DNA from: a virus
IMG/VR virus record: IMGVR_UViG_3300027856_000099
Span: 1-45,426 of that record
DNA: 45,426 nucleotides
Strand: one strand, 5' to 3'
Shown: positions 36,895-40,550 of the stretch, piece by piece
Numbering within the stretch: the stretch's first letter is position 1
Layout of the letters: each line of letters begins with the position of its first letter
Notes under the pieces: generated by a model
Databases searched by the model: none
Seen by the model: only the letters and a program-made list of their open reading frames with translations
What the model was told of the DNA's origin: nothing
Position numbers and translations under genes: made by a program

Positions 36895-37638
36895 ATGACC
36901 ACATCAACTGATAACAACGTACCAGCAGCAACACCCCGGCCTACTGACAAGGGAGCAGAAACCGCTGGCCAATTCTTTCCTTATAACAGCGTAGAAGGAA
37001 CACCAGCAGCGCCGACTGGTTACAGGCAAGTTACTTGTAACTACAAGCAGACCGCAGCTATGAAAGCGAAAGGTACGGAAGCAAAACCTAACGTCTATGT
37101 CACTGTACCTAATGACCACGTATCTATCGCTCAGGTGATTGAGAACATAGAAACGCTGGCTCCGTTTGTTAGCGCTTACTTGTCTAGCGTTGAAGACTCT
37201 ACTATCCGCGCCTATCATAAGGATGGTGGCACTCAGGTATTCACGGAGACGCTAACATTGGCGAAGATACTCGAAACTATCGAAGAGTCGCACAGCAGTA
37301 TCAACGGTGAGCAGATCACGGAGTGGTTTACCGAAGCTTGCGCATCTAAGTTACTGGTCATACTGGCTAACAAACTGGGAACTGATGATCCGGCAGAACT
37401 TACCGAGGAACAAGGCGCTAAGGTCAAGCAGGTGATTGAGTCTTACCTTGCACAGTTCATTAGTCTGGCATCTGGCAAAACGATGCTCCCAGTAGCGCAA
37501 CGAGTAGCACTAGCTAAGTGTTTGAAGCTTACCGACGCTGATACTTCACCGATGGGTATCAGGTTTACCAGTCGTTTCGCTAAGATGGAAAAGAAAGAAA
37601 CCGAAGCACTGGCAAGCTTGGGAGACTTGGAACTGTAG
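36895..37638 (+). CDS. Unknown protein of the plus-strand early cassette (247 aa)
   Basis: ATG 36895 follows an AAAGAG site. An N-terminal disordered arm (~40 residues) leads to a beta hairpin (RQVTCNYKQTAAMKAKGTEAKPNVYVTVPNDHVSIAQVIENIE), then helices. The layout parallels the protein at 29778. Codon use is richer in G and C than that of structural genes (many ACC, GCG, CTG, GGC). A strong 15-bp hairpin follows its stop directly. It may be an abundant nucleic acid or host-binding protein; not recognised. Confidence 0.7.
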   Translation: MTTSTDNNVPAATPRPTDKGAETAGQFFPYNSVEGTPAAPTGYRQVTCNYKQTAAMKAKGTEAKPNVYVTVPNDHVSIAQVIENIETLAPFVSAYLSSVEDSTIRAYHKDGGTQVFTETLTLAKILETIEESHSSINGEQITEWFTEACASKLLVILANKLGTDDPAELTEEQGAKVKQVIESYLAQFISLASGKTMLPVAQRVALAKCLKLTDADTSPMGIRFTSRFAKMEKKETEALASLGDLEL

Positions 37639-37646
37639 CAAGTAAC

Positions 37647-37689
37647 AAGTAGCGCGGGCTAGGTAATAGGACTTAGCTCGCTGCTACTT
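37647..37689 (+). terminator. Strong hairpin directly after the 36895 gene (terminator-like, no T-run)
   Basis: AAGTAGCGCGGGCTA (37647-37661) pairs with TAGCTCGCTGCTACTT (37674-37689) apart from one bulged base and one mismatch or wobble, with a 12-base loop, starting 8 bases after the stop codon. There is no immediate T-run, so it may protect the mRNA end or work as a Rho-aided terminator. Confidence 0.5.
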
Positions 37690-37743
37690 ACTGGACTAGT
37701 AACGTAGGACTATCTAAATTTTCTCGCTTCGCTCGGTTAAGGT

Positions 37744-37908
37744 GTCAGCAAGCTGACTATTAAGTAATCTTATTAAAAGCATCAATGAATAGCAAGCTAT
37801 CCTTAAGTAGTCTTATTACAAGCCTAATGAGTAGCAAGCTACCCTTAAGTAGTCTTATTCCTAATGAGTACTGCGTACCATTCAGTAGTTTTATTACACC
37901 ACACACGA
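37744..37908 (+). repeat. Array of short palindromes with covarying arms (four units)
   Basis: The palindromes are GTCAGC-AA-GCTGAC (37744-37757), ATAGC-AA-GCTAT (37789-37800), GTAGC-AA-GCTAC (37831-37842) and GTAC-TGC-GTAC (37868-37878). Arms differ while pairing is kept. Spacers share TTAAGTA-r-TCTTATT, and the last three palindromes follow directly on AATGA. Steps are about 45, 42 and 37 bases. A functional DNA or RNA structure is likely. Confidence 0.7.
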
Positions 37909-38116
37909 CACAATCTATCCAGAAGGGTGGGGTAGGAAGCTTTTTTAGACTATCCGAGACGCGCTATCCTAAGGAACATCCCTATTTTTCCTAAACTTTT
38001 TATACATATTGCTATCTAAGAAGTCTATTTACGATTACTACCTATGCATCCTATAGCTAACTGTTATAGTAGTATATCAAGATAGCCGCGATCAGTTCTT
38101 ACCAGAAGGAGGAAAC

Positions 38117-38791
38117 ATGTTGCATGATATGAATAATATAACACTTGCAGACTTGGGTTTCCAAGATGGTAAGAAGATACCAGTTTCTGCTGCTCCTACA
38201 GAAGTATCTGCCGTAAATGGTAAACTTGCGCGCGGCACAACTACTAGTATCGAAGATCGTGCATTAGTATTACTAGGTGCTGGTATTGGAGGAGAAGCAG
38301 TAGCTAATGCATTAGGTGTAACTCCTGCTAGAATTAGTCAGTTACTATCTGAGCAAACATTCTCTGATGCTGTAAGTACTCTCCGCTATGAGAATCTCCA
38401 GAAACATAATAACAGAGATGCTTCTTATGATACCATAGAAGATAAGTTATTAGCTAAACTAGAACAAAGTCTTGGATTTATACTAAAACCTGCTGATCTG
38501 TTAAGGGCTATTAGTACTATTAATAGTGCTAAGCGTCGTGGTCAGTCTAGTCCAGATCAAGTAGTAAACCAACAGAATATTGTAAACTTAATATTACCCA
38601 CAATTATTGCAGAAAAATTTACAGTTAATATAGATAACCAAGTAACCCGTGCAGGGGAACAAGAACTCCACACATTGCCAGCATCTACTTTACTAAAGAA
38701 TGTAGAGGATGCTAGCTTAGTACGACAAAAAGCACTTTCTCTTTTAGAAGCGCCACTTACTGAGGAGGATACTCGAATAGAGGCGTTGTAG
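38117..38791 (+). CDS. Terminase small subunit (224 aa)
   Basis: ATG 38117 has an AGGAGG site. Residues ~40-85 form a helix-turn-helix (EDRALVLLGAGIGGEAVANALGVTPARISQLL), the kind by which small terminases recognise packaging DNA. A long helical middle and a Glu/Leu-rich C-terminus that may bind the large subunit follow. It is the first gene of the head module, just after the palindrome array, and two genes precede the portal. The assignment is by position and HTH. Confidence 0.72.
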   Translation: MLHDMNNITLADLGFQDGKKIPVSAAPTEVSAVNGKLARGTTTSIEDRALVLLGAGIGGEAVANALGVTPARISQLLSEQTFSDAVSTLRYENLQKHNNRDASYDTIEDKLLAKLEQSLGFILKPADLLRAISTINSAKRRGQSSPDQVVNQQNIVNLILPTIIAEKFTVNIDNQVTRAGEQELHTLPASTLLKNVEDASLVRQKALSLLEAPLTEEDTRIEAL

Positions 38792-38814: not shown

Positions 38815-38994
38815 ATGTGTAGAAAATACCATGTTAGAGGAGAGGATCTTACTTTGGAACAAGTATTAGCTCGCCTACAAAGTAAAACGACTATTACTAC
38901 TAAAGTAATATATAGCCAGCAAGAAATAGTATCTGCTTCTAAGGTGCTAGAGAGACTTGCAGCTAGAGTTAATTCTGCACCTCGTATATTATGA
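38815..38994 (+). CDS. Hypothetical small protein overlapping the large terminase start (59 aa)
   Basis: ATG 38815 has an AGGA site; its TGA overlaps the large terminase ATG at 38991 (ATGA). The product starts MCRKYHVRGEDLTLEQVLAR and is mainly helical with a coiled C-terminal part (ASKVLERLAARVNS). The coupling makes it likely to be real and to act in packaging. Not recognised. Confidence 0.68.
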   Translation: MCRKYHVRGEDLTLEQVLARLQSKTTITTKVIYSQQEIVSASKVLERLAARVNSAPRIL

Positions 38995-40550
38995 CTACTA
39001 CACTAGAATCATTAGGAGGTACCGAACCTACAAGTATTGGTTTCCAGAATGCAGAAGATACTACTCTACCTGAGGTCAACGAGATACAGCAGGTGGGAGC
39101 TTCTGCGCAGGAAATACAAAAACTAGCTAAGTCTGATCTAGATTTCTTAGCAGCTTTAATTATGCCTACCATCTTTACGTTCTGTTTCCCACCAGTATTT
39201 AAATCAGTCTGGACTTGGATGTTAGGCTATGTAAAGCAGAGTAGAGTATTTCCACAACTTGCATTAGGCTTACCTCGTGGTTTTGGTAAGACTACCTTAA
39301 TGAAGATTTTTATAATCTATTGTATACTCTTCACTAATAAGAAGTTTATACTAATAATATCTGCTATTGCACCTCTCGCGGAAGCTATTTTAGCAGATGT
39401 GATAGATATGTTAGAAGAGCCAAATATTAAAGCTGTCTTTGGAGACTGGAAACTTGGTGTAGAGAAAGACACACAGAAAATTAAGAAGTTTGGATTTAGA
39501 GGACGTAATATAACATTAGCGGCAGTAGGAGCAGAAGGTAGCTTACGAGGACTTAATATTAAGAATACTCGTCCAGATGTTATGCTCTTTGAAGATGTAC
39601 AATCTAGAGAATGTGCTGATAGCTTAGTACAAACTACTTCTCTTGAGAATTGGATAGTAGGAACAGCGATGAAAGCTAAATCTCCTACTGGTTGTATGTT
39701 CTTATTTGTAGCTAATATGTATCCTACTAAGCATAGTATCTTACGTAAATTTAAGAAGAATGCTACTTGGATTAAGTTTATAGCTGGTGGTTTACTTGTA
39801 GATGGTACATCTCTTTGGGAAGAACTCCAGCCAGCAACACAGCTTATTAAGGAATTTGAAAATGATCTGGCTATGGGTAAGCCTGAGATATTCTATGCAG
39901 AAGTTCTTAATGATGAGAATGCTAGTGCTAATAACTTAATTGATCTATCTAAGCTACCAGATTCTCCTTATAGCGAAGGTGATATATCTGGCGGTAACTT
40001 TATAGTAATAGATCCAGCTACAGACAAGATAGGTTCAGATGCTGTATCTGTAGGTTATTTTGAGATACATGATGCTTTACCTATGTTAATGGAATTACGT
40101 GAGGGTAGATTCTCTCCAGGGGATACAATTCACGAAGCTCTTAGACTAGCTCTTACTCATAACTGTCGTCTCATAGCTGTAGAATCTAACGCTTACCAAT
40201 ATTCTTTACTCTATTGGTTTGAGTTTATTTGTAGACAACTAGGTATAGCAGGCATAGAAGCAGTACCTATATACTCAGGTATTAAGAATAAAAATGCTCG
40301 TATACTTACTATGTTTAAAGCTTATGCAGCAGGTGAGTTTTTTGTACATGATGAATGTAAATTAAGTGTACATTTACAGATTACTGGATTTAATCCACTA
40401 AAAACAGATAATGTAGATGGTATACTTGATTTACTTACATATGCGCCGCGCGTAGTAAATGAGTTTGGAGAATATGTAATAGCTGGTAACATAGTAGAAT
40501 CACAAGAATTTGAAGCAATAGAAGTACCTGATTATAATAACCCATTCTAG
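38991..40550 (+). CDS. Terminase large subunit (519 aa)
   Basis: The packaging motor has its ATPase Walker A at residues 95-101 (PRGFGKT), Walker B at 196-202 (DVMLFED, Asp201-like/Glu201 acid pair) and a nuclease domain beginning IDPATDKIGSD with Asp341, followed by ESNAYQ. The order ATPase then RNase-H-like nuclease matches phage TerL. It sits between the HTH protein and the portal. It cuts concatemeric DNA and pumps it into proheads. Confidence 0.93.
   Translation: MTTTLESLGGTEPTSIGFQNAEDTTLPEVNEIQQVGASAQEIQKLAKSDLDFLAALIMPTIFTFCFPPVFKSVWTWMLGYVKQSRVFPQLALGLPRGFGKTTLMKIFIIYCILFTNKKFILIISAIAPLAEAILADVIDMLEEPNIKAVFGDWKLGVEKDTQKIKKFGFRGRNITLAAVGAEGSLRGLNIKNTRPDVMLFEDVQSRECADSLVQTTSLENWIVGTAMKAKSPTGCMFLFVANMYPTKHSILRKFKKNATWIKFIAGGLLVDGTSLWEELQPATQLIKEFENDLAMGKPEIFYAEVLNDENASANNLIDLSKLPDSPYSEGDISGGNFIVIDPATDKIGSDAVSVGYFEIHDALPMLMELREGRFSPGDTIHEALRLALTHNCRLIAVESNAYQYSLLYWFEFICRQLGIAGIEAVPIYSGIKNKNARILTMFKAYAAGEFFVHDECKLSVHLQITGFNPLKTDNVDGILDLLTYAPRVVNEFGEYVIAGNIVESQEFEAIEVPDYNNPF

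Follow-up and report, generated by a model that had tools for sequence, protein, structure and literature searches.

A short array of palindromes upstream of the small terminase gene of an uncultured podovirus probably serves, judging from its sequence, as a group of double-stranded DNA operators, three or perhaps four in number, at which a dimeric winged-helix regulator of the MarR/SlyA type would bind; this regulator would most likely belong to the host. The window analysed here is the whole IMG/VR record (45,426 nucleotides), and the portal relatives of this phage include PaP2, 119X, PaMx41, EBPR podovirus 3 and Polaromonas phage Tiera. If the operator reading is correct, MarR operators of a host type stand in a row beside the packaging signal of an uncultured phage, and the array would let the virus directly read host physiology.

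Palindrome array between p247 and terS

The interval between the stop codon of a 247-codon gene, p247 (36895..37638, plus strand), and the terS-like gene that begins at 38117 holds four short palindromes, located where the preliminary description had placed them. Palindromes 1 to 3 are perfect and of the AGC-AA-GCT type: GTCAGC-AA-GCTGAC (GTCAGCAAGCTGAC, 37744..37757), ATAGC-AA-GCTAT (ATAGCAAGCTAT, 37789..37800) and GTAGC-AA-GCTAC (GTAGCAAGCTAC, 37831..37842). Palindrome 4 is the variant GTAC-TGC-GTAC (GTACTGCGTAC, 37868..37878) with imperfect outer AATG/CATT arms (37863-37882). The shared centre claimed for the array thus holds for the first three palindromes and not for the fourth, whose lack of the AGC-AA-GCT core counts against the operator reading. 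The left flank of unit 2, CAATGA (37783..37788, plus strand), is matched by TAATGA at 37825-37830 and 37862-37867. A box of the form TCTCGCTTCGCTCG-R-TTAAGGT (37722..37743, plus strand) runs into palindrome 1.

The palindromes are joined by a common spacer. Its motif TTAAGTARTCTTATT occurs in three exact copies and one with two mismatches, and no further copy with fewer than three mismatches was found in the whole window, in agreement with the shared spacers noted earlier; a dispersed phage promoter was rejected because the motif is confined to the array. The spacer TTAAGTAATCTTATT lies at 37760..37774 (plus strand), with more copies at 37803-37817, 37845-37859 and 37881-37895. The 170-nt array is the window's peak in density of palindromes with arms of at least 5 and a 2-nt loop, and its summed-arm score was equalled or exceeded in 9 of 2000 dinucleotide shuffles of the array region. 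Spacing between units, which had been called regular, is so only roughly: 44, 42 and about 37 in the window, and 49 and 40 in the one related array (L152). Helical phasing of the units was rejected on these values. A coding interpretation was also discarded: an ORF at 37785-37994 spans part of the array, where 42 nt would make 14 codons, but it has no evident ribosome-binding site, and its frame is broken in L152 by spacer indels.

Between units 2 and 3, which duplicate each other over 34 nt, the sole differences, A37789/G37831 and T37800/C37842, make up one base pair of the palindrome, and this confirms the observation of compensated arms; the chance that two random substitutions fall on partner positions is about 0.003. 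Among the five distinct core-sharing units of the two phages, the two pairs next to the core are always paired (100%) and present two to three pair types. The covariation score of these units was equalled or exceeded in 21 of 500 shuffles. The reach of compensation is short, and in this respect the claim that the arms differ and stay paired has to be narrowed: the third pair outside the core is broken in two of the five units, farther pairs mostly fail, and pairing ends after five or six pairs.

Conservation of the array among relatives

A TerL search yielded 79 loci, and 40 upstream zones of relatives were inspected directly. The array was present in two of these zones (L004, a near-identical copy of the window also recovered as L083, and L005) and absent from the other 38. 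Pattern searches together with zone inspection identified no carriers beyond the window, L004/L083 and L005/L152, and searches with two DNA patterns and with p247 returned only the same two contigs. The array region had no DNA match in annotated phages and plasmids. L152 is therefore the only other independent array-bearing relative, with 90% for TerL and 86% for terS against the window.

In the alignment with L152, palindromes 1 (14/14 positions) and 3 are identical, palindrome 4 is missing, and palindrome 2 is symmetrically altered, ATAGC/GCTAT in the window against ATCAGC/GCTGAT in L152. A hand count gave 36 of 39 matching columns (about 92%) for units 1-3, against 45 of 97 (46%) for the array spacers; the corresponding value for the p247 gene is 0.72. 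The flanks of units 2 and 3 are about 86% conserved, and the box preceding palindrome 1 is identical at 21 of 22 positions, its pattern being restricted to these two viruses in a pattern search. Spacers are homogeneous inside each genome yet divergent between the two. Palindromes and their CAATGA flanks are thus conserved islands between the two array-bearing phages.

The array-bearing phages share a rearrangement of the neighbouring gene. In homologues elsewhere (over 30 loci; L012-L080) p247 lies on the minus strand with its start facing cos, and it is flipped in the array-bearing phages only (the window, L004 and L005). Either the origin of the array or its retention may go with this inversion.

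A search of viral contigs for a three-core pattern returned 101 stretches, mostly without palindromic arm extension, and the only family members among them were the window's copy and L152. One stretch, on the 260-kb contig IMGVR_UViG_3300037851_000542 (L156, 1007-1135), has four intergenic AGCAAGCT palindromes, 35-36 bp apart, with long and perfectly compensated arms; we regard it as an unrelated look-alike rather than a homologue.

Resemblance to MarR/SlyA operators

The preliminary description offered three roles for the array (packaging site, repeated protein-binding site or structured RNA) and knew of no described family with such a layout. The second of these roles is the one that survives, and the statement about families has to be corrected in part, since there is a close resemblance between the palindrome and the operator consensus published for SlyA. 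Units 1-3 and the units of L152 match the inverted repeat TTAGCAAGCTAA at 10 of 12 positions, and in units 2 and 3 the ten matching bases are contiguous. Like SlyA/MarR operators, for example those of the E. coli and Salmonella slyA promoter, the window's candidate sites have the AGCAAGCT core, the AA centre and the size of an inverted repeat read by a dimer, and they are clustered as at the hlyE promoter (PMC2156107). They differ from such operators in their outer bases, in the repeat period of about 42 bp and in their location in a phage without a MarR gene of its own. Mutagenesis of Salmonella SlyA reduced the consensus to TTA-N6-TAA and stressed the outer bases (PMC5797941), at which the array units carry ATA, GTA or TCA. 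This argues against a canonical SlyA site and less so against sites for other MarR members; we do not claim SlyA itself as the binder, since the stressed bases differ in the array. No MarR gene was detected among the ORFs of the window, which makes a host regulator the probable binder.

The same tandem palindromes are associated with MarR-family genes in bacteria. A scan of bacterial genomes for pairs of TAGCAAGCTA sites spaced 20-50 apart produced 41 stretches, 36 of them outside long ORFs. Seven of these 36 loci, from six different lineages, adjoin a gene with a Pfam MarR domain (two in Neisseria and one each in Moraxella, Pseudovibrio, an alphaproteobacterial MAG, Paenibacillus and Spirochaetaceae). 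MarR proteins accounted for 7 of 60 adjacent ORFs versus 3 of 220 other ORFs at the same loci (Fisher P 0.001), in a comparison made with a profile built from six of the adjacent proteins, all seven of which are called MarR by Pfam. Two of the three non-adjacent MarR ORFs overlap their palindromes and are probably adjacent as well, so the test is conservative. For most palindrome pairs found in the scan, no MarR gene lies alongside. The loci of Neisseria and Moraxella include ATAGCAAGCTAT, the 12-mer of window unit 2, and the sites near the MarR gene of the Spirochaetaceae MAG are the unit 3 12-mer, GTAGCAAGCTAC. Bacterial and phage arrays are further alike in being intergenic and in having two or three sites. 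In contrast, bacterial spacing varies (about 23 bp in Neisseria versus about 42 in the window), and the bacterial palindromes sit at the regulator gene itself, which the phage does not have.

We infer binding by a host MarR protein, and with it the identity of the controlled promoter and the sign of the effect. Each AGC-AA-GCT palindrome would be contacted by two regulator subunits, one per half-site, and with adjacent sites occupied a promoter in the interval from p247 through cos to terS would be repressed or de-repressed. A search for sigma-70-like promoters at the array gave none. At hlyE, SlyA acts by relief of H-NS-like silencing (PMC2156107), and de-repression in the phage would resemble SlyA acting against H-NS.

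A conserved cos-like element downstream of the array

Directly downstream of the array lies an element (37929..38001, plus strand) of the form GGGG-N-GAAGCYTTTTT-N16-TATCCTAA-N-TT-CTAAACTTTTT. Its parts are GGGG, GAAGCCTTTTT, a variable stretch of about 16 bases, TATCCTAA, some 15 further bases and CTAAACTTTTT. It is common to about 45 IMG/VR relatives, Tiera and PaP2, with a fixed layout and upstream of terS. The Tiera record both starts and ends within this element, its end mapping to about 37972/37973 in the window, so that a DNA end of a relative falls inside the element; the Tiera authors used PhageTerm for the genome ends and rearranged the genome (PMC9959647). Because of its family-wide conservation and the Tiera genome end, this element appears to be a better candidate for the packaging site (cos) than the array. 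The terS-like gene that follows (38117..38791, plus strand) was assigned on synteny and similarity to Tiera, with no Pfam or PHROG match; its product has a helix-turn-helix with the recognition helix TPARISQLL. It is followed by terL (38991..40550, plus strand; phrog_38, 2.4e-48). The window and the Fredfastierviridae-type podoviruses (PaP2, 119X, PaMx41), Tiera and EBPR podovirus 3 share portal homology and the terS-terL-portal order; PaP2 and Tiera have the cos-like element as the window does, and no array was seen upstream of it. Two things that the preliminary description had merged are thus separated, a putative operator array specific to one lineage and a deeply conserved cos-like element, the latter predicting DNA ends for the whole podovirus family.

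Alternative explanations

The proposal that the array itself is the packaging site fares poorly, as 38 of 40 zones lack it, as the conserved element and the Tiera genome end map downstream of it, and as the TPARISQLL helix is identical in array-less relatives (such as L010, L021, L023, L024, L028, L030 and L033), so that nothing indicates a dependence of TerS on the array. Across relatives the TerS helix is kept throughout, while the array is not conserved with it. A weaker version, in which TerS or IHF-like factors bind the array and it acts beside cos as an enhancer peculiar to this lineage, is also unlikely. The array does precede the cos-like element by about 50-190 bp, with terS following closely, and other phages have short repeats arrayed at cos or pac, as at lambda cosB. 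The window resembles such cos/pac regions with TerS-binding sites, for example the PaP3 cos (PMC7672466), in having short sites that recur close to terS and to a likely DNA end, but its array does not follow TerS, the cos-like element is separate from it, and the array is missing from nearly all zones although the element is present there. Rather unlikely too, in our estimation, is a function as palindromic iterons of a replication origin or as sites for another phage-encoded DNA-binding protein. Tandem units with a conserved CAATGA flank, spacers homogenised within each genome and a position near the strand switch of gene order would suit it; GC skew, however, tracks gene strand with no separate origin signal at the array, no recognisable initiator or regulator adjoins the array, and there are relatives without it.

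Compensated arms are also what a structured RNA would show, with hairpins in the transcript of either strand, for instance in a processed 3' UTR of p247. Symmetric arm changes are, however, equally expected from a two-fold symmetric protein site, and no G-U intermediates occur among the arm pairs of the five core-sharing units. As RNA, single unit hairpins reach only 0 to -4.3 kcal/mol, unit 2 not folding at all, and as DNA hairpins units 2 to 4 have zero energy; this weakness argues for recognition as double-stranded DNA. The plus-strand region is somewhat more stable than shuffles (z = -2.3), but its minimum free energy fold uses mainly other pairings, such as a hairpin after p247, and leaves the unit 1-3 hairpins unformed. 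The minus strand is average (z = +0.2), and an Rfam search returned nothing credible. We therefore consider an RNA role, which had been among the original suggestions, very unlikely. Least probable of all appears a neutral origin by local duplication, in which template-switch (quasipalindrome) mutation and not selection perfected the palindromes. Template switching yields symmetric changes without selection, units 2 and 3 are near-identical duplicates, and within a genome the spacers have been homogenised; against this, the palindromes stand out as islands of conservation when the two phages are compared (about 92% vs 46%).

Other palindromes in the upstream zone

Fur-box-like 13-bp palindromes, such as AATGCGAATCATT, occur in roughly one quarter to one third of the 40 upstream zones, with counts that vary. 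The sequence AATGNNAATCATT or a similar one is found 20-115 bp upstream of the cos-like element in L015, L017, L020, L030, L032, L035, L038, L065, L070, L071 and L072; the candidate sites of relatives are AATGNGAATCATT. The 9-mer GAATGAGAA was present in 7 of 40 upstream zones and in 0 of 783 control tiles. These palindromes would fit a zone of host-regulator operators. A speculative extension, to which we assign a low probability, is that this podovirus family uses the zone upstream of cos as an exchangeable landing pad for operators of host regulators, carrying MarR/SlyA-type arrays in the window's lineage and Fur-box-like palindromes in the quarter to third of relatives, through which the stress or iron state of the host would gate late expression or packaging.

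A few other features of this zone were recorded. A strong hairpin without a U run lies right after the p247 stop (37649-37690), and the matching position of L152 holds a hairpin whose sequence differs (GGGAGC...GCTCCC). In L077 a 40-nt palindrome with 16-bp perfect arms (about 27-66) lies shortly before the cos-like element, close to where the contig starts. Contigs apparently often start 50-200 bp upstream of the cos-like element (L011, L024, L036, L042, L050, L056, L077), possibly as assembly breaks in a repeat-rich zone.
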